Both the position numbers and the translations under genes were made by a program. A DNA stretch of 64,000 bases, from contig CP099652.1 of assembly GCA_024123955.1 (NCBI GenBank), positions 6,014,001 to 6,078,000 of the forward strand. The letters are read 5' to 3'. Within the stretch, counting starts at the first letter, position 1. Every line of letters begins with the position of its first letter. This document shows positions 19,530 through 48,336 of the stretch, piece by piece. The DNA is from Oxalobacteraceae bacterium OTU3CINTB1 (lineage in GTDB: Bacteria > Pseudomonadota > Gammaproteobacteria > Burkholderiales > Burkholderiaceae_D). The notes under the pieces are model-generated. The model saw only the letters and a program-made list of their open reading frames with translations, searched no databases and had not been told where the DNA came from.

Positions 19530-19586
19530 CCGCTTTGACTCCCAACTTCACTACCAGATCGCTACTCTAACCTAAATGATTGTCGT

Positions 19587-24336: not shown

Positions 24337-25332
24337 ATGAAACTTTCACAACTTAGTTTGACGGTTGCAGCTATCTGTATCGCTGCCAGCGCGTCCGCGG
24401 CGGATCCAAAACTGGCCATCGTGTATGACGCGGGCGGCAAGTTCGACAAATCGTTCAACCAGTCCGCTTTTGAAGGCGCCTCGCGCTTCAAGAAGGAAAC
24501 CAATATCAATTTCACCGAGGTGCAAGCCTCCAGCGACACCCAGGCCGAGCAAGTGCTGCGCGGCCTCGCGCGCAAGAACATGGACTTGATCGCCTCGATC
24601 GGCTTCGCCCAGCAGTCGGCCGTGCAGAAGGTCGCCAAGGAATTCCCGAAGGTGCGTTTCGTGCTGATCGACGGCGTGGCGCAAGGCGCCAACATCAACT
24701 CGATCACCTTCAAGGAAGAAGAAGGCTCGTATTTGGTCGGCGTGGCCGCCGCGATGGCGTCCAAAACCAAAAAACTCGGCTTCATCGGCGGTGTCGACAT
24801 CCCGCTGATCCGCACCTTCGCCTGCGGCTACACCCAGGGCGCGAAGGCGGTCGACAAAAAGGTCGATGTCACCTCCAACATGGTCGGCACCACCGCCGAC
24901 TCGTGGAACAACCCTGCCAAGGGCGGTGAGCTGGCCCGCTCGCAGTTCGACCGCGGCGTCGACGTGGTATTCGCGGTGGCCGGCGGTTCGGGCCTCGGCA
25001 CGCTGCAGACGGCCAAGGAAAAAGGCAAGCTGGCCATCGGCGTCGACTCCAACCAGAACCACCTGTATCCGGGTGCGATCCTGACTTCGATGGTCAAGCG
25101 CGTCGACAACGCCGTCTACGACTCCTTCATGCAGGTCAAGGCCGGCACCTGGAAGGCCGGCGTGACCGCCAAGGGCATCAAGGAAGGCGGCGTCGATTGG
25201 GCGCTGGACGCCAACAATCGTTCGCTGATCACGCCGGAGATCGAAAAGCGCGTGCTGGGCGCGCGCAAGGACATCATCGACGGCAAAGTGAAGGTCTTCG
25301 ATATCCGTTCCGGCGCGGCCTGCCCGGTCTGA
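24337..25332 (+). CDS. BMP-family nucleoside-binding protein of ABC importer
   Basis: 331-residue periplasmic binding protein of the BMP/PnrA (basic membrane protein) family. The signal peptide is residues 1-22 (ending ASASA), with no lipobox cysteine, so it is soluble. Family motifs: LAIVYDAGGKFDKSFNQSAF near the mature N-terminus, then IGFAQQSAVQKVAKEFP and VFAVAGGSGLGTLQTAKEKG. PnrA-type proteins bind purine nucleosides. It is the first gene of the four-gene importer (binding protein, ATPase, two permeases). A GC hairpin follows, which may raise its level above the other subunits. Confidence 0.92.
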   Translation: MKLSQLSLTVAAICIAASASAADPKLAIVYDAGGKFDKSFNQSAFEGASRFKKETNINFTEVQASSDTQAEQVLRGLARKNMDLIASIGFAQQSAVQKVAKEFPKVRFVLIDGVAQGANINSITFKEEEGSYLVGVAAAMASKTKKLGFIGGVDIPLIRTFACGYTQGAKAVDKKVDVTSNMVGTTADSWNNPAKGGELARSQFDRGVDVVFAVAGGSGLGTLQTAKEKGKLAIGVDSNQNHLYPGAILTSMVKRVDNAVYDSFMQVKAGTWKAGVTAKGIKEGGVDWALDANNRSLITPEIEKRVLGARKDIIDGKVKVFDIRSGAACPV

Positions 25333-25350
25333 CACCAGTTTGAACACGAG

Positions 25351-25390
25351 CGCGCCGCCGGGGTTGTCCCCCGAGCGGCGCGTTTAACGT
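25351..25390 (+). terminator. GC hairpin between binding-protein and ATPase genes
   Basis: CGCGCCGC (25351-25358) pairs with GCGGCGCG (25375-25382), followed by TTTAACGTTTT. The weak T-run suggests partial termination or protection of the upstream message, the usual way to over-produce a binding protein. Confidence 0.6.
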
Positions 25391-25445
25391 TTTAAGCGTT
25401 TAGTGTTTTACGCGTTTACTATCTAACCGAACCGAAAACGACCCT

Positions 25446-26971
<1,526 letters not shown>

Positions 26972-26975
<4 letters not shown>

Positions 26976-28045
26976 ACAAAGACCTGCCACGCTGGGCGAC
27001 CGCGTTTGCCCTGCCCCTTCTGAACCTGGTGTCCGCCTTGCTGGTGACCGCGCTGGTGATCCACCTGCTGGGCGAGAGCCCGACCGAATCGCTGGCGATC
27101 CTGATCAACAGCGCCGTCGTCAATCCGGAAGGCTTGAGCTACACGCTGTTCTACGCTTCCACTTTCATCTTCACCGGTCTGGCCGTGTCGATCGCCATGG
27201 AAGCGGGCCTGTTCAACATCGGCGCCGAAGGCCAGATGTACTTCGCCGGCCTTGGCCTGACACTGGCGATGCTGACCTTCGACAGCACCTTGCCGGCGTT
27301 GGTGCTGATCCCGGTCGGCATGATCGGCGCCGCGCTGTTCGGCGCGCTGTGGGCCTTCGTGCCCGGCTATCTGCAAGCGAAGCGCGGCAGCCACGTGGTG
27401 GTCACCACCATCATGTTCAACTACATCGCCGCCGCGCTGATGAACACCGTGATCGTCAAGCTGGTGCCGGCGGGCGAGCAAAATCCTGCCAGCCGCGCCT
27501 TCGCGGCCGCCGCCGAAATGCCGCGCCTGAACCAATGGTTTCCGGTGCTGGGCGAGACCCCGCTCAACATCAGCTTCTTCCTGGCGATCATCGCGCTGGT
27601 GATCTACGGCGTGGTGGTGTCGCGCTCCTCGTGGGGCTTCAAGCTGCGCGCCACGGGCCTGAACAAACACGCCGCCCACTACGCGGGCATCCGTATCAGC
27701 AAGATGATCATCATCGTCATGCTGATCTCGGGCGCGCTGGCCGGTCTCGGATCGGTCAATTCCATCATGGGCTCGACCCACTACCTGTCGCTCAACTTCG
27801 TCGGCGGCGCGGGCTTCATCGGCATCGCCATCGCGCTGATGGGCCGCCAGCATCCGGTCGGCATTTTCCTGTCGGCGGTGCTGTTCGGGGCGCTGACCCA
27901 GGGCGGCTTCGACCTGTCGCTGGAGAAGCAGAACATCCCGCCGGAGACGGTGATCCTGGTGCAGGGATTGATCATCCTGTTCTGCGGCGCGATGGAAAAC
28001 CTGTATGCGCCGGTGATCGCCAAAATGCTCAAACTGAAGAAGTGA
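26972..28045 (+). CDS. Nucleoside ABC importer permease 1
   Basis: 357-residue inner-membrane permease of the BPD_transp_2 (RbsC-like) family with about ten hydrophobic segments. The signature AMEAGLFNIGAEGQMYFAGL is near residue 75, and GFKLRATGLNKHAAHYAGI near residue 220 is the coupling loop to the ATPase. It overlaps the ATPase gene by 4 bases. It forms a heterodimer with the next gene product. Confidence 0.93.
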
Positions 28046-28052
28046 GGACACT

Positions 28053-29024
28053 ATGACTTTTGACGACCTCCATATCGGCAGTATCCTGGTATCGACCGTG
28101 CGCAACGCGCCGGTGCTGATTTTTGCCGGCATGGCCGGCCTGTTCGCCGAGCGCTCGGGCGTGATCGACATCGGCCTCGAAGGCAAAATCCTGGCGTCGG
28201 CGTTCGTCTCGGCGGCCGTCGCCTTCACCACGCAGAACCCGTGGTACGGCGTCATGGCCGGCATCGTGGTGTCGATGCTGCTGGCCAGCCTGCAGGCCTA
28301 CATCGCCATCACCCAGAAGGGCAACCAGCTGGTGGCCGGCATCGCCATCAACATCGCCATGAGCGGCCTGACCTTCGTGGTGGCGCAGTACATCTTCCAG
28401 CAGGGCGGCCGCACGCCGGACCTCGGGTCCGCGCGGCTGTTCGACGTGGTGCTGCCCGGGACGGCGGCGGTCGAGGGCATCCCGGTCATCGGCTGGGTGT
28501 ACGCGCATCTGATCGGCGGCCATTCGGTGCTGGTGTACATGGCCTTCGCGCTGGTGCCCCTGGTGCACTGGATCGTTTATCACAGCCGCTTCGGCCTGCG
28601 CCTGCGCGCCTGTGGCGAGAACCCGCACGCGGCCGACGCGGCGGGCGTGAGCGTCGAGCGCCAGCGCTACATGGCGATGCTGATCGCCGGTTTCCTGTGC
28701 TCGTTCGCTGGCGCCTACCTGTCGATCGTGCAGAGTGGCTTCTTCCTGCGCGACATGTCGGCCGGCGCCGGCTACCTGGCGCTGACCGCGATGGTGTTCG
28801 GTAACTGGCGTCCGCTGTACACCTTCCTGGGCTGCCTGATGTTCGGCTTCTTCGGCGCGGTGCAAATCCAGATCGAAGGCGTGGAACTGCCGGGCATCGG
28901 CCGCCTGCCGGGCGCGATGATCCAGATGGTGCCGTACGTGCTGACCGTGATCGTGCTGGCCGGCTTGATGGCCAAGTCGGTGGCGCCGAAATCGCTCGGC
29001 ATCCCGTTCGTCAAGTCGCGCTAA
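28053..29024 (+). CDS. Nucleoside ABC importer permease 2
   Basis: 323-residue permease of the same family as its neighbour but shorter. It has the paired signature FAERSGVIDIGLEGKILASA near residue 35 and the coupling loop GLRLRACGENPHAADAAGVS near residue 185. It starts 7 bases after the first permease with a GAGGA ribosome site. It is the last gene of the importer operon and converges on the cytochrome gene 12 bases further. Confidence 0.93.
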   Translation: MTFDDLHIGSILVSTVRNAPVLIFAGMAGLFAERSGVIDIGLEGKILASAFVSAAVAFTTQNPWYGVMAGIVVSMLLASLQAYIAITQKGNQLVAGIAINIAMSGLTFVVAQYIFQQGGRTPDLGSARLFDVVLPGTAAVEGIPVIGWVYAHLIGGHSVLVYMAFALVPLVHWIVYHSRFGLRLRACGENPHAADAAGVSVERQRYMAMLIAGFLCSFAGAYLSIVQSGFFLRDMSAGAGYLALTAMVFGNWRPLYTFLGCLMFGFFGAVQIQIEGVELPGIGRLPGAMIQMVPYVLTVIVLAGLMAKSVAPKSLGIPFVKSR

Positions 29025-30446: not shown

Positions 30447-30484
30447 TCATGCACTATCGTGCAATATCAAGATAATTCGTGCAA
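30447..30484. promoter_or_regulatory. TCGTGCAA repeats, candidate DeoR-regulator operator
   Basis: TCGTGCAA occurs at 30457-30464 and 30477-30484, exactly 20 bases apart, with a near copy TCATGCAC at 30448-30455. All lie just before the start of the DeoR-family gene and within the nudK/DeoR divergent gap. Repeats in phase with the helix suit a multimeric DeoR/GlpR-type repressor acting on its own gene and possibly on nudK. Confidence 0.5.
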
Positions 30485-30487
30485 ATC

Positions 30488-31264
30488 ATGCTAACACGTC
30501 AACGCAAGGAACTACTGCTGTCCCGCCTCAAGCAGGACGGCCAGATCGTCGCCAAGTCGCTCAGCGAGGAGTTGGGATTGTCGGAGGATACGATACGCCG
30601 CGACCTGCGCGAGCTGGCCGGCGAAGGTTTGCTGCAGCGGGTGCACGGCGGCGCTCTGCCGTTGGCGGCGCCGCTGCCCGCATCGCCGGCAATGGGCAAC
30701 TTCGCCGAGCGCCAGCAAATATCGAGCGACGCCAAACCGGCCATCGCGCGCGCTGCCGCCGCCATGGTCAAGGCGGGGCAAGTGGTATTTATCGACGGCG
30801 GCACGACGGCGGTCCAGCTGGCGCGCCATTTGCCAGCCGACTTGAAATGCACCGTCGTCACCCACAGTCCCAGCATCGCGGTCGAACTGACGGAGCATCC
30901 GCTGATCGAGGTGATCATCATCGGCGGCCGCCTGTTCAAGCATTCGATCGTCGCCATGGGACCGGCCGCGCTGGAGGCCATCGCGCAGATTCGCACCGAC
31001 ATCTACTTCATGGGCGTTTGCAGCCTGCATCCGGAGCAAGGCATCAGTACCGGCGACTACGACGAAGCCGGCGTCAAACGCGCGATCGCGGCAGCGGCGC
31101 AAAAGACGGTGGTGCTAGCGTCGCCGGAAAAACTGGACACCGCGTCGCCGTTCCAGATCGCCCCGATGCAAAGCGTGGGCGCGATCATCGTCAACGCCGG
31201 CGTATCCGACGCCCTGCTGGCGCCCTACCGCGCCATGGGTATCGAGGTGGTGCTGGCCGGCTGA
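30488..31264 (+). CDS. DeoR/GlpR-family transcriptional regulator
   Basis: About 258 residues. The N-terminal winged helix-turn-helix is RQRKELLLSRLKQDGQIVAK then LGLSEDTIRRDLRELAGEGL, the DeoR signature. The C-terminal sugar-phosphate sensing domain contains VVFIDGGTTAVQLARHLP, IGGRLFKHS and YFMGVCSLHPEQGI. The ATG at 30488 is favoured; a GTG 9 bases earlier is also in frame. The effector is probably a phosphorylated sugar, and deoxyribose-5-phosphate would fit the surroundings, but this is inference. Confidence 0.9.
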   Translation: MLTRQRKELLLSRLKQDGQIVAKSLSEELGLSEDTIRRDLRELAGEGLLQRVHGGALPLAAPLPASPAMGNFAERQQISSDAKPAIARAAAAMVKAGQVVFIDGGTTAVQLARHLPADLKCTVVTHSPSIAVELTEHPLIEVIIIGGRLFKHSIVAMGPAALEAIAQIRTDIYFMGVCSLHPEQGISTGDYDEAGVKRAIAAAAQKTVVLASPEKLDTASPFQIAPMQSVGAIIVNAGVSDALLAPYRAMGIEVVLAG

Positions 31265-31268
31265 CCAC

Positions 31269-32339
31269 TCAAGGCCAGATGGCTTTGAGGACGGCGGCCA
31301 AACGATAGCCGCCCAGTGTCAGCTGCGTCCTGGCGTCGGCCGATGTCGGCACCGGATAGTCATCGGGCACCGACACAGGCCACACGCCGTACACCGCGCC
31401 ACTGCTCTTGCTGGTCTGCCTGGATATCGCACCCGGAACCACGCCGTTGTAAGCGCGCTTGGACACCACCAACGCTTGTTCGGCCCACCGGTACGGCCAG
31501 TTCACCGGATCGCCGCCGTCGGCAGCCACTACCGGATTGGCCGCGATGACCGCTTCCGCGAACTGCTGCGGCGAGCGCGCATCGATGCGGCGGAAGGCGT
31601 AGTTCACCGTCGTGCCATCCCAATACGAATGCAACGGACGGGTGGCCCTCGGCGGGCGCGGCGGCCCTGGTGGGTCGACGTTTTCAGCCTCCGGCGGCGG
31701 AATCAGGCGTCCGCTGCTCTCGCCCAGTTTGACGTCATCGAGCAGCAGATTATTGCCGCCTTGCGTGGCGAACGCCTCACCGGCATCGAGCTGCGCCTGG
31801 CTGGCCGGCACGACGAAACCGCCGTCCCTGCCGACATACGCTTCGCCTACGTGCAGCGGTTGCGCGATATCGCCCGTCAGGTGAGCCAGCATCAGCAAGG
31901 CCTGGCGCGGCGTGAAGTCGTGCGGATTGGTGGCCTTGTCGCCCTTGCCCTGCAAAATGGCGATGCACTGCTTGAGCGTCTGCACGATGTCGTCGTCGGC
32001 GGTGCCGAGCGCGTGGTCGTGGTACTCCGTCAGCTGGAACGGCACGTTGGTGTAGTGGTACTCGGTATGCCGGGGATTGGCTGCGACGTAAGCTTCCATC
32101 TCGGCAGTCTGCGGGCCGCAATAAGTCCCCTTGACGCAGTCGGCCCAGATGGCGACCTTCTCCAGGGTCTCGCCGGGCAGCAGCAAGGCCTGCACGCGCT
32201 TTTCGGCGTTGCTACCCTTGATCAGCTGATCGGCGATGGCGCCGACCGCACGATGGCCGTCATTACCCCACGCCTGCGCGTTCAACGAGACGAGTGCGCA
32301 GGCGCCGCCAAGCGCCGTCACCAACAATAGCTTCTTCAT
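31269..32339 (-). CDS. Secreted S1/P1-family nuclease
   Basis: 356 residues. Signal peptide 1-23 (ending NAQA) leaves a mature N-terminus starting Trp-Gly-Asn-Asp-Gly-His, where the N-terminal Trp is the first zinc ligand of S1/P1 nucleases. Other zinc-site segments are VAIWADCVKG, TEYHYTNVP, LAHLTGDIAQPLHVGE (HxxxD plus His) and PLHSYWDGTTV. These enzymes cut single-stranded DNA and RNA and act as 3'-nucleotidases. It overlaps the stop of the upstream PLD gene (ATGA), and the 5'-nucleotidase gene lies just before that: an extracellular nucleic-acid degradation operon. Confidence 0.93.
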   Translation of the reverse strand: MKKLLLVTALGGACALVSLNAQAWGNDGHRAVGAIADQLIKGSNAEKRVQALLLPGETLEKVAIWADCVKGTYCGPQTAEMEAYVAANPRHTEYHYTNVPFQLTEYHDHALGTADDDIVQTLKQCIAILQGKGDKATNPHDFTPRQALLMLAHLTGDIAQPLHVGEAYVGRDGGFVVPASQAQLDAGEAFATQGGNNLLLDDVKLGESSGRLIPPPEAENVDPPGPPRPPRATRPLHSYWDGTTVNYAFRRIDARSPQQFAEAVIAANPVVAADGGDPVNWPYRWAEQALVVSKRAYNGVVPGAISRQTSKSSGAVYGVWPVSVPDDYPVPTSADARTQLTLGGYRLAAVLKAIWP

Positions 32340-33574
32340 TCCGCTTTGCCTTTTACAGGTTTGGGATACTGCTTGTTGATGTCGAGCGCCTGCGCGTACT
32401 GCGAGCTCCAGATCTGCTCCTGCGTCGCCGCCAGGCGCTGCGCCATTTTCTCGTTGCGCATCACCACTTCCATATTACGCGACAAATCCATGTAGCCGCC
32501 TGCCCAGTTGCTGGTGCCGACCCACGCGATCTGATTATCGATCACCATGGTCTTGCTGTGGATGACGCGCGCGAACGGAATGAAGCCGCTCGACGCCACC
32601 GGTATCGTCACCACGCGGATCTCCACGTTCGGCAGCATCGCCAGGCTTTTCAGATAGGCTTGCGCCGGCTGTTCCAGGTTCCAGTTGGATACCATCAGCT
32701 TGATCTTGACGCCGCGATTGGCGGCGGCGCGCACCGCGTTGTCGATCACGGCGTAGTAGGGCCGCGTGCCCTTCGGACCATAACTGAGCGGCGCGTAGTC
32801 GAGCAGCTGGATGCGCACTTCGCTCTTGGCGTCGGCCAGCAGCGCCGGCAAGCCGGACTCGGAGTCGCCGATGCCGGCCGGGTTGTAACGGTTGGGACTC
32901 GCCAGGAGGAAGGTCTCCTGGCGATAGTTGGGCGCGGCGGCGGGTGTACTGGCAGCCGCGTTCAGCGCCGGCACCGCCGTGCCCTGCTCCGTCAGCGCCT
33001 GCGCGCGCCAGTCCTGGTTGAACACCGCCAGCACCTGGCCGACGAGCTTCGGATCGGTGATGCGCAGTCCCGTCTCGTGGATATGCTCGAAGGAGCGCCA
33101 GTCGAAGTTCTGGCTGCCAATAAAGGCGGTGGCGCCATCGACCACCATGTACTTGGCGTGGATGATGCCATTGCCGGTCAACTTGCTGAAATCGAGGACG
33201 CGCAGTTCCAGGTTCGGAATCGCCCGCAACTGGTCCAGGGTCGGCTTCTCCGACAGGCCGATGCCTTTCTGTTCAAGCAGGAAGCGGATCTTGACGCCGC
33301 GCTTGCCGGCCGCCGCCAGGCGCTCGACGACCTTGTCGAACACGCTGCCCGGCTTGTTGACCGCGTAGAACTGGCCGATCACGATCTCGGTCTTGGCGTT
33401 GTCGAACATCTCGCTCCACACCGTCGCGGGATCGCGCAGGTCGTCGCTGCGCAGCGGTGTTTCGACGGGCGCCGTCTGCACCAGTTCAAAGCCGGGGATG
33501 GAAAACTCGGCACGGGCCGGCGCGGCCGATGCCAGCAGCGCGGGCACGACAACGGAAAGTAAAATACGACGCAT
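32336..33574 (-). CDS. Exported phospholipase D-family protein (possible nuclease)
   Basis: 412 residues with a signal peptide (residues 1-22, ending PARA). Both PLD catalytic motifs are intact: HAKYMVVDGATAFIGSQN (about residue 150) and HSKTMVIDNQIAWVGTSN (about residue 340), each HxKx4Dx6GSxN-like. The family includes phospholipases, phosphatidyltransferases and Nuc-type endonucleases; two motifs in one chain can serve either function. Its overlap with the S1-type nuclease gene and closeness to the 5'-nucleotidase favour a phosphodiesterase or nuclease role on nucleic acids, which is inference. Confidence 0.88.
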   Translation of the reverse strand: MRRILLSVVVPALLASAAPARAEFSIPGFELVQTAPVETPLRSDDLRDPATVWSEMFDNAKTEIVIGQFYAVNKPGSVFDKVVERLAAAGKRGVKIRFLLEQKGIGLSEKPTLDQLRAIPNLELRVLDFSKLTGNGIIHAKYMVVDGATAFIGSQNFDWRSFEHIHETGLRITDPKLVGQVLAVFNQDWRAQALTEQGTAVPALNAAASTPAAAPNYRQETFLLASPNRYNPAGIGDSESGLPALLADAKSEVRIQLLDYAPLSYGPKGTRPYYAVIDNAVRAAANRGVKIKLMVSNWNLEQPAQAYLKSLAMLPNVEIRVVTIPVASSGFIPFARVIHSKTMVIDNQIAWVGTSNWAGGYMDLSRNMEVVMRNEKMAQRLAATQEQIWSSQYAQALDINKQYPKPVKGKAE

Positions 33575-33607
33575 AGCGGTAACTCCAATGAATATGTTTA
33601 GTCTTGA

Positions 33608-35317
33608 CTACCGCAGGCGCCTGATGCGCTGCTGCGTTTCGGCCTTGCCGGCCGGCTTGCCCGCCTCTTCGCGCTTGACCAGATAAGCGGTCAGCGCATC
33701 GACGGCGAGGATGCCCGTTTCGGCGCGGTTCGCGCCATTGGCGAACATCGGAAAAGCATCTCCGCCTTCGGCAAGGAAGTTATTCACCATCACCCGGTAC
33801 GACGACTCCCTCTGCAGCGGTACGCCGTTCAACGTCACGCTGTCCGGCACCACTTTGCTGCCCTCGCCGCGCTTCGCATCCCACTGGTAGGTGAAGCCCT
33901 CGGACACCTGCAGCAGCCCGCGCCAAGAGTCGCGCCCGCCGAGCCACTGCTGCTCCAGCAGCTCGTGGATCTGCCACCCTTTCAGGTTCATCGCCACCAG
34001 CTTGTTCGCGAACGGCAGGACCACCTGCGCCTGGCCGACGGTGACGCGGTTGCCCGCGCCGCTCTCCAGATCCTTGCGGATGCCGCCGTTGTTCATGAAA
34101 GCGATCTGCACGCCGAAGGGACGGCCCGCCGCCAGCACCGAGTCGGCCACCAGATCGCCCAGCGGCGACTCGCCGTTGTCATCGAGACCGCGCTCCACGC
34201 TGGGCACGGCCAGCGCCGCCACCGGACGCGCAAGTTGCGCCGCGCTGCGCTCGCGCGCCGTCTTGAGATACGCATCGAGCGCCGGATCGGCGGGCCAGGT
34301 TCCCGGCACCATCACCTCCTGCGTGGCGCTGACGTCGCGCAGCGTGTTGGTGGCGGTATCGACCCGCAGCTTGATGCGCGCCATCACATGGCCCGCCGAA
34401 TCGGACTGCGTCACCAGACGGCCGTCCACCCGGCACAGATAGCCCTTGTGCGAGTGGCCGCTGACCACCACGCGGATCGCCGGATCGAGGCGTTTGACGA
34501 CATCGACGACCGGGCCTTTCAGCTGACTGCAATCCTGCTGGTCGAACTTCTCGACCGTGGTGCCGCCCTGGTGCAGCAGCACGACGAACACGCCGACGCC
34601 CTGCTGGCGCAGTTCCGGCAGTTGGCGGTTGATGGCGTCCGCCTCGTCGATGAATTGGAGGCCGGCGATGCCCGAGGCCAGCGAGGTTTCGGCGGTCTCG
34701 CGCAACACGGTGCCGATGAAGGCCACCTTGACGCCATGCGCCGTCTCGATCCTGTAAGCCGGCAGGATCGGCTTGCGGGTGACCATGTCGATCACGTTGG
34801 CCGCCAGATAACTGAATTTCGCGCCGGCGTAGTCCGGGTCGAACTTGCAGGCCTTGTCGGCGCGCGGCGATTTGCAGCCGCCCTTCTGCTGGCGCAGCAG
34901 CTCGACACGGCCGGCGTCGAATTCGTGATTGCCGACGGTGCTCGCGCGCAGCCCCAGTAAATCCATCGCGACCATGGTCGGCTCGTCGGCCCACATCGAC
35001 GAAATGGCCGGACTGGCGCCGATCAAATCGCCGGCGCCCACCAGCAGCAGTTCCGGGTCCTGCTTGCGCCAGGCCTGCAACGCCGCGCCCAGCGTATCGA
35101 TACCGCCCGCCATCACCGTGCGCGCGTCGCGGTTTCGCACGCTATCCCACACGTATTTGCTCGGTTCAAGGTTGCCGTGGAAGTCGTTGAGCGTGGCCAG
35201 TTGCACCTCGACGACGCCGGGCGGCAACGGCGGCGACAAAAACGCGCAGCCGCCGGACAAGGCCGCCAGCGCGCCCGCCAACACGGCGCGGGCGACGGAA
35301 CTCAATGGTTTAGTCAT
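33608..35317 (-). CDS. UshA-like 5'-nucleotidase / 2',3'-cyclic phosphodiesterase
   Basis: 569 residues. The N-terminal export signal ends near ALSGGCAF, which is either an imperfect lipobox or a cleavable signal. The calcineurin-like metallophosphatase domain has LATLNDFHGNLEP, VGAGDLIGASP, STVGNHEFDAGRVELL and VVSGHSHKGYLC. The C-terminal 5_nucleotid_C domain (from ~residue 345) shows NNGGIRKDLESG and the substrate stack YRVMVNNFLAEGGDAFP. It releases nucleosides from nucleotides in the periplasm. It is the first gene of the 5'-nucleotidase/PLD/S1 nuclease operon. Confidence 0.94.
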   Translation of the reverse strand: MTKPLSSVARAVLAGALAALSGGCAFLSPPLPPGVVEVQLATLNDFHGNLEPSKYVWDSVRNRDARTVMAGGIDTLGAALQAWRKQDPELLLVGAGDLIGASPAISSMWADEPTMVAMDLLGLRASTVGNHEFDAGRVELLRQQKGGCKSPRADKACKFDPDYAGAKFSYLAANVIDMVTRKPILPAYRIETAHGVKVAFIGTVLRETAETSLASGIAGLQFIDEADAINRQLPELRQQGVGVFVVLLHQGGTTVEKFDQQDCSQLKGPVVDVVKRLDPAIRVVVSGHSHKGYLCRVDGRLVTQSDSAGHVMARIKLRVDTATNTLRDVSATQEVMVPGTWPADPALDAYLKTARERSAAQLARPVAALAVPSVERGLDDNGESPLGDLVADSVLAAGRPFGVQIAFMNNGGIRKDLESGAGNRVTVGQAQVVLPFANKLVAMNLKGWQIHELLEQQWLGGRDSWRGLLQVSEGFTYQWDAKRGEGSKVVPDSVTLNGVPLQRESSYRVMVNNFLAEGGDAFPMFANGANRAETGILAVDALTAYLVKREEAGKPAGKAETQQRIRRLR

Positions 35318-35417: not shown

Positions 35418-35451
35418 TAAAAAAACGGCTGATGTCGCCACCAGCCGTTTT
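35418..35451 (-). terminator. Intrinsic terminator of Oar-like receptor gene
   Basis: AAAACGGCTG (35422-35431) pairs with CAGCCGTTTT (35442-35451). On the minus strand the stem is followed by TTTTTTT. It lies 24 bases beyond the receptor stop codon. Confidence 0.93.
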
Positions 35452-35474: not shown

Positions 35475-38400
35475 TTAGAATTCGTAACGTACCGTTGCCT
35501 GGATTGCCCACTGCGACTCGCCCTTGACTTGACGGACATCGACGCTTTCGACATCGCGCACGCGGTACACGTACTTGCCGGCCGCATCCAAACCTTGGTA
35601 GTCGACGAAGCTGCGCGCCACACCGCCATTGCTCTGGAAGCCGACTTCATTGATACGGCCCCACTTCTTGTTCAGCAGGTTGCCGAAGTTGAAGATGTCG
35701 AGCGAGAACGTCGCCTTATTGTTGAAGAAGCCAGGAATTTCCTGGGCGATGCGAACGTCGAAGCTGTTGGTCCAAGGCGCGAAGTCGCTGTTGCGATCGA
35801 CAACGCGGCCTTTCGAATTACGCAGCACGCCATTGGAATTGACGATGCTCCAGAACTTGTCTTCGTTGGCGTGGTTGGTGGCCGTGTCGCCATAGAACAC
35901 CACCTGGCCCGAACCCGGCGCCGAAGGGATGAACATCAGGTCGTTGCCGGCCAGGCCGTCACCGTTCAAGTCGTTGTTGACGGTCCAGCTGTAAGGCTTG
36001 CCCGAACGACCTTCGTAGAACACGCCCAGGGTGGTGTTGTAGCTGCCGAAGAAGCGCTTGCGGAAGTTGAGCAGCGCGCTGATACGGTCTTTCACCAGAT
36101 AGGTCGAGTTGGCGTTGACTTCCTCGTTCGGATTGAAGGTGGCGCGGCTCGAGTAGTTCGACGCCGAGGTCGACGACGTCAGCGGCGATACTTCCTTGGC
36201 CGAGGTGTAGCTATACGCGGCCGACCAGCTCCAGCCGTTCATCATTGGACGGGTCAGCGAGACGGTGGCGACATTGCTGTAGCCCTGGTCGGTCTTGGTG
36301 GCGACCAGCACGTTGTTGAACGACGAGTTGCTCAAGGCCTTGGCGACGAAGCCCGAGCAAACGCCGTTGGAGATCGAGGCGCCGGTTGGCGACCAGCAAG
36401 CCTGGTTGTAACCTTGCGGGCTGTAATACAGCGCGCGGCCGTCGGTGCCGGTGCGGGTAGCCACGCCCAAGTTGGCGTTCTGGTAGTAGATCGCGTCGTT
36501 GGCCTTGGTCTTCAGGAACTCGGCGCTCAGCACCAGACCGTACCATGGCAGTTCCGTTTCAACCGCGATATTCGCTTTCCATACCGAAGGCTGCTTCAGG
36601 CCTGGGGCCAGGATATCGACGTTGGCGGCCGGGACCGAACCGGTGAAGCTGGTCACCTGGTTGTTGATGTCCGTACGGAACAAGCCGTCGGTGCTCGGGC
36701 ACGCCGCGTAACCGGCAATACCGCAACCCACGGTGCGGGTCTGCACGCCGGTGTTGGAGAACGGATTGGACAGCCAGACGGTCAGGGCGGAGCCCTGGAA
36801 CAGGCCGGCGCCACCGCGAATTTGCGTCTGACGGGCGGTGTCGAGCTTGTAGTTGAAGCCGGCGCGCGGCTGGAACAACTTCTGGCCGTCGAAGGTGTTG
36901 GTGTTGTCCATGCCAAAACCACCGGTGGCGCGGGTGTTGGTGGCAGGGTTGCCGGCGATGGCCGCCTGCGCCACGCGGTCGTTGCGCAGCGGACGCTCGG
37001 CGACATCGGTGCCGTCGACGCGCACGCCGAAGCTCACGTTCAGGTTCGAGCTCACAGCCCAGGTGTCCTGGATGAAGGCACCATAGTTCTTCATCGTGAA
37101 CTGCGACACGGCGTCGTCCAGGGTCAGGCCTGGATTGGCCACCTGCACGCTGTAGCTGCTTGGACGGCCGCGGCGGAAGTTCTCCAGCACGGCCGCTTCG
37201 ATCTGGGCGTTGCTGCCGGTGCCGCAGTTGAAGTTGGCGTTGTTGTTGAACTGGTAGGCGACGTTGGTGATGCAACCGAACGTGTAGTTGCCCCAGACGT
37301 TTTGCAGGAACGCATTGTAGATCTTGTTGCGGCTGTAATCGCTGCCGAACTTGATTTCATGGTCGCCCAGCGACCAGTTGGCGCCGGCGTAGGCGTCGAT
37401 GGTCTTGGTGCCCAGGATGTTGCGTTGACGGCTGTTGTCGGTACCGAAGAACAGCGTGCGGTTGGCCGACGAAACGGTCGACGGCGTGCCCGGCGGCAGC
37501 GCGCCGGAGAATTGCAGGCCGATCAACGGCAGCTGCGTATTCAGTTTAGGCACGGAATCGTAGTCGCGCGAGGACAGCTTGAACTCGGTCGAGAACGTCG
37601 GCGTCCAGTCCGACAGTACCTGGGCGACCTTGGTTTCGATGGTCTTGCCCTGCTGGTACCACTCGCTGTTGAGCGACAGGCCGGTGGCCGACAGGCCGCT
37701 GAAGATAGGCTCGGTCTGGTCCGTCTTCGAATAGCGGAACATGGCGCGGTGATTGTCGGTGATGTTCCAGTCAAACTTGACCAGCTTGTCGGTGACATCG
37801 AGCGCGGCGCCCGACGGCACATTGCTGTTGCCGATATCGACGCCATAGGCGCTCTGCGCGATCGACTGCGCCGAGGCGATGGCCGACGGGGTGATGCCGA
37901 CGTTGGTCACCGAGCTGCCCAGCGGGCCGAAGGCCGGCGCGGCGCGGGTCGATTCCAGCTTTTCCCAGCCTGCGAACAGGAACAGCTTGTCCTGGATCAG
38001 CGGCAGGCCGATGGTGCCGCCCTTGGTGGTTTCCTTGAACGGCGCGGGCGCCGCGTAGGTGTTGTTGGTGGCGTTGAAGCGGTCGCCGGCCATGCTGTCG
38101 TTACGGAACACGTAGTAGACGCTGCCCTTGACGGTGTTGGTGCCGGACTTGGTCACGGCGTTGATGTTGCCGCCGGTGTAGCCCTTCTGCGTGACGTCGT
38201 AGTTGGCGACGTTGACCTGCACCGACTGGATCGCGTCGATCGAGATCGGCTGCTTGGCGGTCGGCGAACCGCTCGCCTCCAGGCCGAAGGTGTCGTTGAC
38301 GGACACGCCGTCGATGGTCAGCGAGTTGTAGCGCGAGTTCTGACCGGCCACGGACATTTCGCCGCGCTCTTTATCGGTCTGCGACACGCGCGGGTCGGCA

Positions 38401-38891
38401 CGGGCGTAATCCTGCAGGTTGCGGTTGATCGAGCCCTGGATCGCCAGTTCGGTCGCGCTGATGCTGGTGCCGGCGCCCATCGACGATTTGTTGAACTTGT
38501 CCGAGCGGCCGCCGGTGCCGGCGATGGTCACGGTCTGCATGGCAGGCGCGCCCAAGGTGGCGTCGACGCTGGCCGTTTCAGCCAGCTGGATGTAGACGTC
38601 CTTGCGCGTTTCGGTGACGCCGTCTTTGGTGATGGTAATCGTGTACGGCCCACCGGTACGCAAGCCACGCTGCACATAACGGCCTTCGGCGTCCGTCACC
38701 ACATTGGTGACCGAACCCGATTCGGTGTGGAGGATGGACACCACGGCACCCGCCGCAGGCTTGCCGTCCGCCACCGAGACGCGGCCGCCGATGGCCGACG
38801 TCGTGTTCTGTGCAAAGGCCGGTGCCGCCGCGAGCGCGATGGACAGGCTGAGCGCGATTTGCGTCAGCTTGAGCCGTTTATGATTGATCAT
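35475..38891 (-). CDS. Oar-like TonB-dependent receptor with carboxypeptidase-regulatory domain
   Basis: 1138 residues. The start at 38891 gives a clean signal peptide (ALSLSIALAAAPAFA); a longer frame to 38999 adds only non-coding-like residues. After the signal comes a carboxypeptidase-regulatory-like beta domain (residues ~28-105, GGRVSVADGKPAAGAVVSIL). A plug follows (TIDGVSVNDTFGLEASGSP, GGNINAVTKSGTN) and then a very large barrel ending WAIQATVRYEF. Oar-type receptors take up large or complex substrates such as peptides or proteins. It has its own terminator and a palindrome upstream. It is probably monocistronic. Confidence 0.92.
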   Translation of the reverse strand: MINHKRLKLTQIALSLSIALAAAPAFAQNTTSAIGGRVSVADGKPAAGAVVSILHTESGSVTNVVTDAEGRYVQRGLRTGGPYTITITKDGVTETRKDVYIQLAETASVDATLGAPAMQTVTIAGTGGRSDKFNKSSMGAGTSISATELAIQGSINRNLQDYARADPRVSQTDKERGEMSVAGQNSRYNSLTIDGVSVNDTFGLEASGSPTAKQPISIDAIQSVQVNVANYDVTQKGYTGGNINAVTKSGTNTVKGSVYYVFRNDSMAGDRFNATNNTYAAPAPFKETTKGGTIGLPLIQDKLFLFAGWEKLESTRAAPAFGPLGSSVTNVGITPSAIASAQSIAQSAYGVDIGNSNVPSGAALDVTDKLVKFDWNITDNHRAMFRYSKTDQTEPIFSGLSATGLSLNSEWYQQGKTIETKVAQVLSDWTPTFSTEFKLSSRDYDSVPKLNTQLPLIGLQFSGALPPGTPSTVSSANRTLFFGTDNSRQRNILGTKTIDAYAGANWSLGDHEIKFGSDYSRNKIYNAFLQNVWGNYTFGCITNVAYQFNNNANFNCGTGSNAQIEAAVLENFRRGRPSSYSVQVANPGLTLDDAVSQFTMKNYGAFIQDTWAVSSNLNVSFGVRVDGTDVAERPLRNDRVAQAAIAGNPATNTRATGGFGMDNTNTFDGQKLFQPRAGFNYKLDTARQTQIRGGAGLFQGSALTVWLSNPFSNTGVQTRTVGCGIAGYAACPSTDGLFRTDINNQVTSFTGSVPAANVDILAPGLKQPSVWKANIAVETELPWYGLVLSAEFLKTKANDAIYYQNANLGVATRTGTDGRALYYSPQGYNQACWSPTGASISNGVCSGFVAKALSNSSFNNVLVATKTDQGYSNVATVSLTRPMMNGWSWSAAYSYTSAKEVSPLTSSTSASNYSSRATFNPNEEVNANSTYLVKDRISALLNFRKRFFGSYNTTLGVFYEGRSGKPYSWTVNNDLNGDGLAGNDLMFIPSAPGSGQVVFYGDTATNHANEDKFWSIVNSNGVLRNSKGRVVDRNSDFAPWTNSFDVRIAQEIPGFFNNKATFSLDIFNFGNLLNKKWGRINEVGFQSNGGVARSFVDYQGLDAAGKYVYRVRDVESVDVRQVKGESQWAIQATVRYEF

Positions 38892-39508
38892 TGTATAACC
38901 CCAAAAAAGACTAATAGTTATGTGGAAATCCCGCTGATGGCGGAACTCCTCTTTACGTTTGCTGCAACTGGTCGAGCCGCCCAAATCCCGGCGTGCCAAC
39001 GGCAGCGGGTGAGTGTAACGGCTTAATATGTCAGGGCTGTGACGTCCGTAGGTGACGCTTCCGCCTGGTTTGCCACTTATCTACTGAACTGTGAGAAAGC
39101 AATAATCTTGCTTTTTTGGATCATTTGATCCAACTATGCAGGATCGAAAAAAGCATGACAAATACGATTTATTTTACGAATTCAGATGAAAAATATATAA
39201 ATAAGGCTAGATTCACAGGCAAGTGCAACGACGACGTGGAATAAGCCGGAATTATAAATCAGCCATTCTCACGTGAAATCTTTTCATTGGTATAAATGCA
39301 CAAAGCAACACTACCGGTAGCGCTTATGTCGTATCGCGGCCACAAGCGTTAAAAAAAGCGTGCGGCGTCTGCCACAGAGAGGAATTTCTGACAACAGTCG
39401 GATGCTGCTGTGCGGAAGGATATTTTGTAACAAACCGCAGGGTGGTGTGGGTTGCGCACCACACCACCCTGCTGTTGAGCCAGCTTATCGCCGGTGACGT
39501 CCGCTGGA
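38892..39508. promoter_or_regulatory. AT-rich intergenic region upstream of Oar-like receptor
   Basis: 617 bases without a credible gene, clearly more AT-rich than its surroundings. It must hold the promoter of the receptor on the minus strand. A perfect palindrome, TTGGATCA-TT-TGATCCAA, lies at 39116-39133, about 225 bases upstream of the receptor start, and is a candidate operator. The left ~100 bases form the receptor leader. The right end holds the terminator hairpin of the adenosine deaminase gene (listed separately). Confidence 0.55.
39437..39472 (-). terminator. Terminator hairpin after adenosine deaminase gene
   Basis: A 14-bp perfect stem (GCAGGGTGGTGTGG 39437-39450 with CCACACCACCCTGC 39459-39472) and an 8-base loop, 36 bases past the stop. 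The T-rich tail on the minus strand is imperfect (GGTTTGTTA), so efficiency is uncertain. Confidence 0.75.
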
Positions 39509-40984
39509 CTAGCGCGCGGCCTTGCTTTGCGACGCAGCAATTTCAGCCTCGAACTTGCTGAACTTGCCGTCCAATCCCTTCAACAGCCGCTGCTTGTCGG
39601 CCTCCGCCAGGAAGGAATAACGGATGCTGTCGTAGGACAGTTTTTTAACTTCCGCATAAGTCGGCTGGTAACGGGCCGCGTACAGCACGTATTCGCCGGA
39701 CAGGTTATTGCGCGACACGCCGGCATCGTCGGTCGACAGCACGAACGGCACGCCATATTTGCGGTACAAGGTGACCGGATGCGCGGCCCCCTTCACACCC
39801 AAAATAAAGTCGTTACTACTCAGGTTGACCTCGACGGGAATCTGCCGATCACGCATTTTTTTCATGATGCCCAGCGGATCGGTCTCGTGGGCGATGTCCA
39901 TGCCGTGGCCGATACGGCTGGCGCCGGCAACGTCGATGGCGTCGCGGATATGGAAGGTCAGGCCCTCCGGCGGCACCATGCCCAGCGCCAGCTCGCCGGC
40001 GTGCAGCGCCAGTTTCACCTTCGGATATTTCGCCTTCAGGAATTTGAACATCTGCATGTGCATCGCGTAGTCGCGCATCGACACGTGGACGCTCTCCTGG
40101 CCGACGATGTTCACGCCAACGATCATCGGGCTGGAAGACGCCAGCTTAAAGCTCGACACCATCTGCGAGAACACCTGCGACGGCGACAGGAAGCGCAGCG
40201 CGAACGGCTGGTAGCGCATCGTAAAATCGGCGTCGTCGATGCCGGCGCCGGAGGTCTTGACGTTTTCCAGGTAGGCGCCGATCCAGCCCTGGAAGGCCTT
40301 GTCGCCTTCCAGTTTGGTGCTGTAGGCGGCCAGGTCGGCGTCGGTCACGCCGCCGGCCAGGGCTTTCTCGTCGAAGGCCGGGTCCTGCGCGATCGGCGCG
40401 ATCTCGTAGATGGTCTCGATGTAGCTCAGGTTTTCCTGGATGGCGCGCTGCTTGAGCGTCTTCAAGCCTTCGGCGGCGTTGGTCGACGCCACCGGCGTAA
40501 AGTAGCCGAAGGTGTCGAAGAACTGGCGGTCCGGCGGCGACTGGATGCCGCTATGGTTGTAAAAATCCTTGTCCGACCATTTTTGCAGCAGGTTGGCCAG
40601 CACCGTGTTGTCCTGCAAAATATCCTGGCCGGACAGGCACGCGCGCTCGGCCAGCGGCTTGGCGCGCTCGCCGGCGACGGTCTCCTTGGTCTTGTCGATC
40701 ATGAAACTGGTCTTGTTGACGCAGTAGCCCTCTTTGTCCACCCACTCCAGATACTGCTCGGCGTAGATCGCGCCGGAATAGTGGTGGTGCAGATCGCCGC
40801 CCTTGGGCATCATCGTGAAGAACATCGTCAGCTCGGCCAGTTTCGGCTCCTGTCCGGAGACCAGCGAGGCGAAGTGGCGCTTGACGATGTCCTCGTTGCT
40901 GGCGGCGTGCGCGCCTTGCGGCATGGCGCAGAGCACGGCGGCGGCCAGGGCGACGGCCTTCAGGCTGGCGATATTTTTTTGCAT
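39509..40984 (-). CDS. Exported adenosine deaminase-family enzyme
   Basis: 491 residues. The start at 40984 gives a typical signal peptide (AVALAAAVLCAMPQGAHA), so the enzyme is periplasmic or secreted, unlike the cytosolic Add. Amidohydrolase zinc-site motifs are present: PKGGDLHHHYSGAIY (HxH), KLALHAGELA (His and catalytic Glu), SRIGHGMDIA and VLSTDDAGVSRN (Asp pair). The length and export match secreted ADGF/CECR1-like deaminases. It is the last gene of the purine operon, converting external adenosine to inosine. It starts 22 bases after guaD. Confidence 0.9.
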   Translation of the reverse strand: MQKNIASLKAVALAAAVLCAMPQGAHAASNEDIVKRHFASLVSGQEPKLAELTMFFTMMPKGGDLHHHYSGAIYAEQYLEWVDKEGYCVNKTSFMIDKTKETVAGERAKPLAERACLSGQDILQDNTVLANLLQKWSDKDFYNHSGIQSPPDRQFFDTFGYFTPVASTNAAEGLKTLKQRAIQENLSYIETIYEIAPIAQDPAFDEKALAGGVTDADLAAYSTKLEGDKAFQGWIGAYLENVKTSGAGIDDADFTMRYQPFALRFLSPSQVFSQMVSSFKLASSSPMIVGVNIVGQESVHVSMRDYAMHMQMFKFLKAKYPKVKLALHAGELALGMVPPEGLTFHIRDAIDVAGASRIGHGMDIAHETDPLGIMKKMRDRQIPVEVNLSSNDFILGVKGAAHPVTLYRKYGVPFVLSTDDAGVSRNNLSGEYVLYAARYQPTYAEVKKLSYDSIRYSFLAEADKQRLLKGLDGKFSKFEAEIAASQSKAAR

Positions 40985-41006: not shown

Positions 41007-42317
41007 TCAAGTCGAGCTGCGGGCGTGCACCTTGCGGCCGGCGGAATACGTCGCCGCGATGGCGCGGTCGTCGCCGAGCAGCGCCAGCGCGAACAGCAGC
41101 TCCTCCAGGCTTTCGACACGGTCGGTGCGCCGCTGCAGCAGCGGCGTGGCCTGCGGGTCGACGACGATGAAGTCCGCCTCCGCGCCGGCGCTGAAATTGC
41201 CGATCGTGCCTTCGAGCTGCATGCTGCGCGCCGCGCCCAGCGTGGCCAGGTAGAACATCCGCAAAGCCGGCAGATAACTGCCGCCCAAGCGCGCTACTTT
41301 ATAGGCTTCATTCATGGTTTGCAACATCGAGAACGAGGTGCCGCCGCCGACATCCGTCGCCAGCGACAGCGGCACGCCCGCCTGGTCGGCCCGCTCGAAG
41401 TCGAACAATCCGCTGCCGAGGAACAGGTTCGATGTGGGGCAGATGGCGGCGGCGGAGCGGGTTTCGGCCATGCGCTCGCGGTCGCGCGCATCGAGCCAGA
41501 TGCAGTGGCCGTACATCGCGCGCGGACGCATCATGCCGTAGCTGTCGTAGACGTCGATGTAGCTACGCGACTTGGGGAACAGTTCATGCACCCATGCGCA
41601 TTCGGCTTCGTTCTCCGATACGTGGGTCTGGATGAAGGTGTCCGGATAGGCGCGCGCCAGTTCGCCGGCCAGGTGCAGTTGCTCCTCGGTGGAGGTGGGC
41701 GCGAAGCGCGGCGTGATCGCGTACAGCGAGCGGCCGTGGTTGTGCCAGCGCTGGATCAGCGCCTCGGTGTCGCGCGCGCTCGATTCGGCGGTGTCGCGCA
41801 GGTAGTCGGGGCAGTTCCGGTCCATCATCACCTTGCCGGCGACCATGCGCAGGCCGCGCTGCTCGCTGGCGGTGAAGAAGGCGTCCACCGATTGCGGATG
41901 CACGCTGCAATAGACCATGGCGGTGGTGGTGCCGCAGCGCAGCAGCTCGTCGAGGAAGAAGTCGGCCACGCCGGCGGCATGCGCGGGGTCGCCGAATTTA
42001 CTCTCGACCGGGAAGGTGTAGGTTTCCAGCCAGGGCAGCAGGCCTTCGGCCGGCGAGGCGATCATATCGGTTTGCGGATAGTGGACGTGGGTGTCGATGA
42101 AGCCTGGCATCAGCAGCTTGCCGCTGTAGTCGTGCACTTCGGTTTCCGGCGGCAGGGTCGCGTGCAGCGTGGCGTAGTCGCCCGCCGCCTGGACCTTGCC
42201 GTCGGCGACGATCAGCAGGCCGTCTTCGTGCCAGTCGTGGGACTGGTCGCTGAAGGCCGGATCGGCGAGGAAGTGGAGCAAGCTGCCTCGGTAGGCTTGC
42301 AGGTTTGGGTTCGACAT
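41007..42317 (-). CDS. guaD: Guanine deaminase
   Basis: 436-residue cytosolic amidohydrolase converting guanine to xanthine. Motifs: PGFIDTHVHYPQTDMIASPA (metal HxH and substrate loop), SLYAITPRFAPTSTEEQL, IQTHVSENEAECAW, YGHCIWLD and SLATDVGGGTSFSM with the metal-binding Asp, all matching bacterial GuaD. Length is normal. It lies downstream of xdhC, separated by a 154-base gap carrying the repeat doublet C, and upstream of the exported adenosine deaminase. Its product is the substrate of XdhAB. Confidence 0.95.
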   Translation of the reverse strand: MSNPNLQAYRGSLLHFLADPAFSDQSHDWHEDGLLIVADGKVQAAGDYATLHATLPPETEVHDYSGKLLMPGFIDTHVHYPQTDMIASPAEGLLPWLETYTFPVESKFGDPAHAAGVADFFLDELLRCGTTTAMVYCSVHPQSVDAFFTASEQRGLRMVAGKVMMDRNCPDYLRDTAESSARDTEALIQRWHNHGRSLYAITPRFAPTSTEEQLHLAGELARAYPDTFIQTHVSENEAECAWVHELFPKSRSYIDVYDSYGMMRPRAMYGHCIWLDARDRERMAETRSAAAICPTSNLFLGSGLFDFERADQAGVPLSLATDVGGGTSFSMLQTMNEAYKVARLGGSYLPALRMFYLATLGAARSMQLEGTIGNFSAGAEADFIVVDPQATPLLQRRTDRVESLEELLFALALLGDDRAIAATYSAGRKVHARSST

Positions 42318-42400: not shown

Positions 42401-42498
42401 CACGTAGGGTGGATTAGGCGGAACGCCGTAATCCGCCATCTGTGAGCCGCCGACGGAGCACGCATGGCGGATTACGCTGCGCTAATCCGCCCTACGTG
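42401..42498. repeat. Palindromic repeat doublet, copy C, overlapping xdhC 3' end
   Basis: Left arm 42401-42440 (CACGTAGGGTGGATTAGGCG... ending CCGCCATC) and right arm 42463-42498 (CATGGCGGATTACGCTGCGC... ending CCTACGTG) in inverted orientation, with a 22-base spacer that includes TGTGAGCCGCCGACGG. The right arm encodes the last eight residues and the stop codon of xdhC. It is the same family as copies A, B and D. Confidence 0.92.
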
Positions 42499-43482
42499 AT
42501 TTAACGTTAAACTCTGCTGCGCTTCCCATACCATCAGCAACTGGGCGCATACGGAGGCGGCGATCGCGGCAGGCAGCTTGTTGGTGATGCCGGCCAGGCC
42601 GATCGGGCAGACCATGGCGTCGATGCGGTCCTTCGGCAGGCCGCGCGCGGCCATCCGGCGTTCGAACTGCACACGCTTGGTCCTGGAGCCGATCAAACCA
42701 AACCAGCCGACATCCGCGCGCGCCAATATCGCTTCGCTCAAGCGTTGGTCGAGCGCGTGGCTGTGGGTCATTACAAGGTAACTGGCATCGGCCGGCGCGC
42801 CGGCGACCAGCGCCTCCGGCATGTCGGTCGCTTCGACAGTGACGTTGGCGGGTATAGTAGAGGGGAACATGTCCTCACGCTCGTCGATCCAGGTGACGGT
42901 GCACGGCAGCTCGCCCAGCATGCGGACAATGGCCGCGCCGACATGGCCCGCGCCGAACAATAGCAGATGCGCGCGCGGAGCCAGGCACGGATCGGCGAGC
43001 CAGCGGCAGCCGGCGGCATCTTTGATCACATGCGTACCGCGCTTGCGGTCAACCAATGGCGGGCTATCGCCCTCCCCCGCGAGCGTCCTGCCATCGGCAT
43101 CCAGCAGCAGCGAGACAGACGGGCCGTCGATGGCGCTCAAGCGCCAGCTGTCTTCGCGATGACGTAGTCTCAAGCTCTCCAGCACGGAGCGCAGCGAAGC
43201 ATCGACCAACTCGAATACCAGGTGCACCACGCCGCCGCAGCACTGACCCAAAGTCGGGCCTAGCGCATAGCGCTCCAGCCGCGCCGCTTGCGCGCCGTCC
43301 AGCATCCCGCGCGCCACCTCGACCGCGCACATCTCCAGATGTCCGCCACCGATCGTGTCGACCTGCCCTTGCGTCGTCACCAGCATCTTGGCGCCCGGTT
43401 CGCGCGGTCCGGAGCCTTCGACGATGGCCACCGTCACCAGCACCGCCGGCTCAGTGATCCGCGTTGTCAGCCACTCGTTCAC
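42472..43482 (-). CDS. xdhC: Xanthine dehydrogenase accessory protein XdhC
   Basis: 336 residues. It binds molybdenum cofactor and helps to sulfurate and insert it into XdhB. The N-terminal XdhC/CoxI domain shows VEGSGPREPGAKMLVTTQG and DTIGGGHLEM. The C-terminal Rossmann domain shows HLLLFGAGHVGAAIVRMLG and later WFGLIGSRTKRVQFERR. The start directly abuts the xdhB stop. The natural C-terminus near MVWEAQQ is extended by residues HVGRISAA and a stop that come from the inserted repeat arm. Confidence 0.94.
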   Translation of the reverse strand: MNEWLTTRITEPAVLVTVAIVEGSGPREPGAKMLVTTQGQVDTIGGGHLEMCAVEVARGMLDGAQAARLERYALGPTLGQCCGGVVHLVFELVDASLRSVLESLRLRHREDSWRLSAIDGPSVSLLLDADGRTLAGEGDSPPLVDRKRGTHVIKDAAGCRWLADPCLAPRAHLLLFGAGHVGAAIVRMLGELPCTVTWIDEREDMFPSTIPANVTVEATDMPEALVAGAPADASYLVMTHSHALDQRLSEAILARADVGWFGLIGSRTKRVQFERRMAARGLPKDRIDAMVCPIGLAGITNKLPAAIAASVCAQLLMVWEAQQSLTLNHVGRISAA

Positions 43483-45834: not shown

Positions 45835-45845
45835 GGTGGCTCCTT

Positions 45846-47315: not shown

Positions 47316-47322
47316 CGTGGTC

Positions 47323-48315: not shown

Positions 48316-48336
48316 ATATGCGCAGACCGCCATCGG

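Follow-up and report, generated by a model that had tools for sequence, protein, structure and literature searches.

The 64,000-nucleotide stretch of DNA analysed here (the window) belongs to the genome of Oxalobacteraceae bacterium OTU3CINTB1 (6.87 Mb, a single contig) and carries on its minus strand three adjoining genes for predicted exported enzymes, namely a 5'-nucleotidase (NT5), a two-HKD protein of the phospholipase D superfamily (PLD) and an S1/P1-type zinc nuclease (S1/P1), preceded by a TonB-dependent receptor. An earlier note on the same DNA had described the three enzyme genes as coupled, and this coupling is real: the domains are those claimed (Pfam scores over cut-off), 33 bp lie between the NT5 stop and the PLD start, and the PLD stop and the S1/P1 start share the letters ATGA, a 4-bp overlap. 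The receptor, a partner as constant as the enzymes, was left out of that reading. The features of the operon and its promoter are listed below; the receptor ATG at 38891 was picked by eye, its open reading frame (ORF) being open to 38999.

31269-32339, minus strand: S1/P1-type zinc nuclease (ORF list, Pfam, matches in the Protein Data Bank (PDB), alignments)
32336-33574, minus strand: PLD, two-HKD phospholipase-D-superfamily protein, PLD3/PLD4-like (ORF list, Pfam, PDB matches, alignment)
33608-35317, minus strand: NT5, probable lipoprotein 5'-nucleotidase, Metallophos and 5_nucleotid_C domains (ORF list, Pfam, PDB matches, alignment)
35424-35442, minus strand: terminator-like hairpin in the gap between receptor and NT5
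35475-38891, minus strand: Oar-type TonB-dependent receptor, CarboxypepD_reg and OMP_b-brl_4 domains (Pfam)
39028-39045, minus strand: PhoB-like box ACGTCAC-AGCC-CTGACAT, scoring 11/14, some 140 bp before the start codon of the receptor

Gene linkage and the receptor partner

Conservation was followed in a family sample of 145 Oxalobacteraceae genomes (with E <= 1e-10 as the threshold for an S1/P1 match) and in a set of long-flank loci (80 kept of 130 relatives, together with further regions and the window); since the two collections overlap in genomes, the counts drawn from them are not independent. The gene order on which the earlier note had leaned is kept among relatives. More specifically, S1/P1 finds a match in 44 of the 145 genomes, near full length (at least 47% identity) in 38, and in all 38 of these an NT5 gene lies at most 200 bp upstream on the same strand, with PLD between the two in 18 and NT5 directly before S1/P1 in 20; the other six matches are weak and partial (39-41% in their main piece) and have no NT5 beside them. 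PLD is present in 34 of the 145 genomes, as part of the trio (18), in an NT5-PLD pair (6), without adjoining NT5 (9) or, in the remaining one, elsewhere in a genome where NT5 and S1/P1 are direct neighbours. In the phylum sample PLD occurs in 11 of 398 genomes, three of which are the window's own and same-family ones, and among 369 sampled genomes of the class the S1/P1 subfamily was found in two, the window's own and, as a weak match, one of the 368 others.

Of the 64 NT5-(PLD)-S1/P1 loci, 63 could be assessed, having 3 kb or more of upstream sequence. In 62 of these (all but L070) a TonB-dependent receptor precedes NT5 on its strand at a distance of at most 500 bp, an adjacency of receptor and degradative enzymes as in TonB-dependent uptake loci that resemble polysaccharide utilisation loci. 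Two unrelated receptor types occupy this place, alternating even among Duganella species: the Oar type in 35 loci (as in the window, with 78-347 bp between receptor and NT5 across loci) and a second, FhuA-like type in 27. The Oar-type receptor has no solved relative by sequence.

Outside the NT5 loci, PLD is typically the last gene of an exbD-(tonB)-receptor-exbB-PLD module (30 loci), hosted by Pseudomonas, Herbaspirillum, Collimonas, Sapientia, Solimicrobium and further genomes; in four loci an exbB-linked form has NT5 before PLD, and receptor-exbB-PLD is what can be seen in two Pseudomonas loci truncated by contig ends. Altogether, 81 of 93 loci have a receptor next to PLD or within its module. 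As for the other twelve, four are cut by contig ends (L060, L073, L102, L127), the Oar receptor of L070 lies about 5 kb away, the two Pelomonas loci (L090, L108) have a two-component regulator pair in the receptor's place before PLD, and L123, L126, L128, L129 and L130 show no receptor.

By direct sequence comparison (BLAST), the second receptor type comes nearest to the receptors of these modules, matching one from Collimonas at 41% identity (589 bits) and one from Pseudomonas at 33% (379 bits), as against 28% (229 bits) with the best of the homologues that the window genome yielded. In a receptor tree the second-type receptors of NT5 loci form one group (support 86/77). The BLAST comparison is relied on here instead, because the outgroup branches of the tree run from 3.6 to 10, one outgroup row, flagged for its composition, probably represents an antisense ORF, and two changes were required for the group of PLD-module receptors. 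The different arrangements (receptor with PLD, receptor with NT5-S1/P1, receptor with all three) are read as one functional association that has been shuffled.

Other receptors and modules offered observations of their own. In Pseudomonas loci (L092 6839-12993, L102, L106, L121, L122) a 605-amino-acid M20-family peptidase follows receptor-exbB-PLD as a fixed neighbour. The window also holds a second TonB-dependent receptor (781 amino acids, 21400-23745, minus strand), which is divergent to the BMP-type importer and closely related to neither of the receptor types that accompany NT5 (scores of 48.5 bits at best).

PhoB-like boxes at the receptor promoters

The E. coli-type PhoB box consists of two CTGTCA(T/C) repeats placed 11 bp apart. 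This consensus, with 14 scored positions, was sought in the 350 bp upstream of each gene start given by tblastn and compared with dinucleotide shuffles. Boxes scoring at least 12/14 stand before 28 of the 62 receptors of NT5 loci, where 0.10 would be expected, and they occur with both receptor types (Oar 14/35, 0.10 expected; second type 14/27, 0.00 expected), whereas nine control groups (module receptors, NT5, the adenosine-deaminase-family gene (ADA), guanine deaminase, BMP, DeoR, ExbD, PLD and S1/P1) gave a single box in 461 sequences, with about 2.8 expected. With a threshold of 11/14 the receptors reach 43/62 (2.6 expected), and the controls stay near expectation except for BMP (3/26, 1.1 expected) and DeoR (3/27, 1.3 expected), which lie somewhat above it (for ADA see below). 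Several relatives (e.g. L066, L033, L042) have three or four PhoB-like repeats in tandem, and pstS of the window genome has a 13/14 box in the expected place, with the same layout as at the receptors. In that genome divergent Pho boxes also stand before pstS and its neighbour (L201, 2565 on the minus and 2730 on the plus strand).

Fur-like boxes scoring at least 14/19 were absent from six promoter groups, the receptor promoters included, and a search for a shared palindromic operator gave no motif in most loci. The PhoB-like boxes point to phosphate starvation rather than carbon need as the trigger. In the phosphate-starvation biology of Caulobacter, the TonB-dependent receptor Cc0171 has been linked to ElpS, although expression of Cc0171 itself was constitutive (excerpts of PMC2996285).

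The three enzymes and their nearest relatives

Each enzyme is a member of a known family, and no NCBIfam model exceeds its own cut-off for NT5, PLD or S1/P1. In NT5 the 5_nucleotid_C and Metallophos domains are both above the Pfam cut-off, and a 70-row alignment shows D45, H47, D97, N130, H131, H249, H288 and H290 to be invariant, residues that we take to be the metal ligands. Its N-terminus is lipobox-like, with Cys24 invariant in 70/70 aligned homologues, and the protein looks like a lipoprotein; PLD and S1/P1 have Sec-type N-termini, judged by eye, which agrees with the export of all three described in the earlier note. S1/P1 scores 92.3 bits with the Pfam model S1-P1_nuclease (cut-off 29.5), its best stretch covering profile positions 1-130 of 258, and W24, H29, D67, H95, H153, D157, H163, H237 and D241 are invariant in 22/22 rows of alignment A1; these are presumably the nine zinc ligands expected of the family, including the mature N-terminal Trp. 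In a wider alignment of 64 rows, which takes in two outliers at 29% identity, H29, D67, H95, H153, D157 and H163 remain invariant, and W24, H237 and D241 are not fully so. Enzymes of this family break down single-stranded nucleic acid to 5'-nucleotides, and they take off 3'-phosphates as well.

PLD matches PLDc_2 (in two stretches) and PLDc above the Pfam cut-off, and both HKD motifs are invariant in 21/21 PLD sequences. Among solved structures its nearest homologue is SpPLD of Serratia plymuthica AS9 (PDB 7E0M, PMC8004604; E 2e-155, 521 bits, residues 23-409), followed by PLD3 (E 3.2e-31), the poxviral nicking-joining enzyme (E 2e-29) and PLD4 (E 4.1e-29) and, more distantly, by the F13 envelope phospholipase (E 2e-15) and NucT (E 3e-5); Streptomyces PLD and human PLD1/2 are not among the matches at E <= 0.001. 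A profile built from the 21 sequences left the order of these groups unchanged, added FAM83B (E 6e-4) and placed PLD3/PLD4 at E 4.7e-46 as against 1e-24 for F13, the nicking-joining enzyme being about as near to PLD as PLD3/PLD4. Because of the kinship with PLD3/PLD4, the comparison favours a nuclease over a lipase.

PLD3-type enzymes remove nucleotides from the 5' end, and the phosphate stays on the 3' side. A PLD3 crystal structure whose site holds the first thymidine and the phosphorothioate after it agrees with a phosphate on that side, and in this structure Tyr411 is given the role of base stacking, with Asp220 also named (excerpts of PMC10783504). In the window PLD, Asp220 aligns with D158, which is invariant in 93 rows, and Tyr411 with F334, which is present in at least 90% of 21 rows. 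SpPLD, for its part, has nuclease-like loops and one region or pocket called unsuited to acyl chains; its authors ask whether the enzyme hydrolyses nucleic acid and leave its natural substrate open, and no measurement of activity appears in the excerpts (PMC8004604).

Neighbourhood, interpretation and known systems

The genes around the operon and receptor are mostly those of nucleoside and purine metabolism, with the following nearest.

39437-39472: strong terminator-like hairpin, separating the adenosine-deaminase-family gene from the receptor
39509-40984, minus strand: exported adenosine-deaminase-family protein (ADA), a kept upstream neighbour behind that hairpin
41007-42317, minus strand: guanine deaminase (NCBIfam over cut-off), also a kept neighbour
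42472-48552, minus strand: xdhC, xdhB, xdhA and a PuuE-type allantoinase (purine catabolism)
24337-29024, plus strand: BMP-type ATP-binding cassette (ABC) importer, with binding protein, ATPase and two permeases; presumed nucleoside specificity, NCBIfam models all below cut-off
30479-31264, plus strand: DeoR-family regulator, convergent with S1/P1; not conserved as its direct neighbour

The earlier note had placed deo, psu and purine genes and a nucleoside importer near the enzymes, and the neighbourhood is as it stated: the window has a thymidine phosphorylase, a DeoC-type aldolase, a Metalloenzyme-family (deoB-like) protein, a PNP-type phosphorylase and a PsuG-type protein, in addition to guanine deaminase, XdhA/B/C and the PuuE-type allantoinase, though psuK was not confirmed, the one candidate ORF tested having no Pfam match. 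The operon of exported phosphoesterases and its surroundings are also conserved, with a secreted-type adenosine deaminase upstream in 56 of 62 loci, a guanine deaminase in likewise 56/62 and, in 49 of the 58 loci with enough sequence, an ABC permease encoded on the other strand no more than 7.5 kb from S1/P1. What finds no support is that all this forms one organised locus, because the importer (on the strand opposite to the enzymes), the deo genes and the enzymes are by strand separate transcription units, and the spacing between S1/P1 and the DeoR gene varies from 11 bp to 5.3 kb across loci. Elsewhere in the window, a 793-amino-acid aldehyde-dehydrogenase protein with two Aldedh stretches (8248-10629, minus strand) lies between thymidine phosphorylase and DeoC and perhaps handles the acetaldehyde from DeoC; a pyroglutamyl peptidase adjoins a DUF979 membrane protein (18879-21218, minus strand), possibly as a unit of pyroglutamate uptake and cleavage; and a PEP-CTERM protein has a putative ice-binding-like adhesive domain (1109-2173, minus strand).

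With moderate confidence, we read the operon and its receptor as a TonB-coupled system that scavenges nucleic acids under the control of phosphate starvation, placed beside conserved genes for nucleoside import and purine catabolism. PhoB would turn on the receptor and, through read-through or coupling, also NT5-PLD-S1/P1, which may be transcribed together with the receptor (the motif is clear in relatives and weak in the window). The receptor, to judge from gene linkage, may bring fragments of nucleic acid, or nucleotides, through the outer membrane. In the periplasm S1/P1 would cut single strands and remove 3'-phosphates, PLD would act as a PLD3/PLD4-like 5'-exonuclease and the lipoprotein NT5 would strip 5'-phosphates; the 5'-nucleotidase and the 3'-nucleotidase activity of S1/P1 may together cover both types of product. 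Phosphate would then go to Pst, and nucleosides to the BMP-type importer and the route of adenosine deaminase, guanine deaminase and xanthine dehydrogenase. A more specific version can be offered only tentatively, namely that two unrelated types of TonB-dependent receptor have been recruited to import oligonucleotides, which a counterpart of PLD3/PLD4, S1/P1 and a 5'-nucleotidase finish in the periplasm, with PhoB control in Oxalobacteraceae.

Several points weigh against the phosphate-controlled scavenging of nucleic acids. More than half of the receptor promoters (34/62) score below 12/14, NT5 has no box of its own (1/68), and at 11/14 the ADA promoters (7/58 vs 2.9 expected) blur the contrast with the controls. 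The window's own box is weak, with seven sites of its score (11/14) in 64 kb, so that the Pho claim for the window rests on the relatives, where boxes scoring 12-14 share its position. The exbD-receptor-exbB-PLD modules have no Pho box, either before exbD (0/34) or before the receptor (0/35), and phosphate control would therefore belong to the NT5 loci of Oxalobacteraceae rather than to PLD as such. Receptor and NT5 are separated by a terminator-like hairpin, such hairpins being at chance level in the region (10 sites vs a shuffle mean of 8.7). Searched against NCBIfam and PDB, the second type of receptor resembles siderophore receptors, and the counts are not independent, because the loci are phylogenetically related. 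PLD3 and PLD4 have, in addition, been reported to act on lipids too. SpPLD was published as a phospholipase (PMC8004604), and the poxvirus F13 phospholipase is likewise a relative of PLD.

The phospholipase name of this characterised close homologue (in the excerpts of its paper) and the more distant kinship with F13 would, like the Pho boxes, suit a general scavenging of organophosphate under phosphate starvation, in which the substrates would be phospholipids or another phosphodiester for PLD and nucleotides for S1/P1 and NT5, and dead cells would supply phosphate at large. However, PLD acting on a lipid frees phosphate only with the help of other enzymes, which the operon lacks, and PLD3/PLD4 are nearer than F13; the loops and pocket of SpPLD, and the question of nucleic-acid cleavage that its authors left open, also speak against this explanation, which we consider unlikely. 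A further reading follows the earlier note in assuming feeding on extracellular DNA or RNA through one locus, and takes carbon and nitrogen to be the gain and nucleosides or the DeoR-type regulator to be in control. Although the conserved neighbourhood with deaminases and ABC importer and the deo genes of the window agree with that reading, Pho boxes are found instead of a shared operator, the DeoR gene lies at variable distance and the importer is on the opposite strand, which makes it improbable. Least credible is that receptor and PLD serve something else (e.g. a carrier of iron or a cofactor) and are linked to NT5-S1/P1 by an accident of shared regulation: the FhuA-like second receptor type and the 30 loci with PLD modules that lack NT5 could be so understood, but there are no Fur-like boxes, the receptor adjoins NT5 in 62/63 loci with two receptor types, and NT5 and PLD are neighbours in the four exbB-linked loci too.

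If true, nucleic-acid scavenging under phosphate control would offer a defined system in which to study how soil and freshwater bacteria draw phosphorus from the DNA and RNA of dead cells. It would also give a function to a widespread 'phospholipase D', the substrate of which was left open even in the paper on its structure, and raise the question of whether TonB-dependent receptors carry nucleic-acid fragments. Feeding on DNA by means of secreted nucleases and nucleotidases is already known, and the bacteria concerned (Shewanella, Lutibacter, Ca. Izemoplasma) have secreted nucleases, exported nucleotidases and nucleoside catabolism in common with the locus; they differ in that no PLD-receptor operon is described for them, the words 'TonB' and 'phospholipase' occurring 0 times in the text of the paper (PMC8289736). 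Searches of the open PubMed Central literature brought up no paper recognised as describing the receptor-NT5-PLD-S1/P1 operon, or the exbD-receptor-exbB-PLD module, as a nucleic-acid system.

Among the enzymes taken singly, the 5'-nucleotidases of the UshA/CD73 type are the best PDB matches of NT5 (3IVD, E 3.2e-35; 2Z1A, E 1.5e-34) and share Metallophos and 5_nucleotid_C with it, whereas NT5 is a predicted lipoprotein in a receptor-linked operon and falls below the NCBIfam cut-offs for UshA and NadN. The SmNuc1-type bacterial S1/P1 nuclease (PDB 8QJL) and the plant and fungal S1/P1 enzymes have the N-terminal Trp, the zinc-ligand pattern and the Pfam domain S1-P1_nuclease in common with the window S1/P1, which is about 100 residues longer than 8QJL and aligns weakly in its second half. 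SpPLD is, like the window PLD, an exported two-HKD protein, and the exbD-receptor-exbB-PLD module is present in the two genomes whose PLDs most resemble it; it differs in being published as a phospholipase D, and the excerpts of its paper describe no nucleotidase or S1/P1 partner (PMC8004604). The human 5'-exonucleases PLD3 and PLD4 (PDB 8V05, 8V08; PMC10783504) share with PLD two HKD-type motifs per chain, the GSxN-DW signature and an aromatic residue at the stacking position, but they are lysosomal type II membrane proteins of animals with no receptor coupling, and the second motif is HKE in PLD3 and HKD in the window PLD. If true, the proposed mechanism would set a lysosome-like division of labour, between an endonuclease, a PLD-type 5'-exonuclease and a phosphatase, in the bacterial periplasm.

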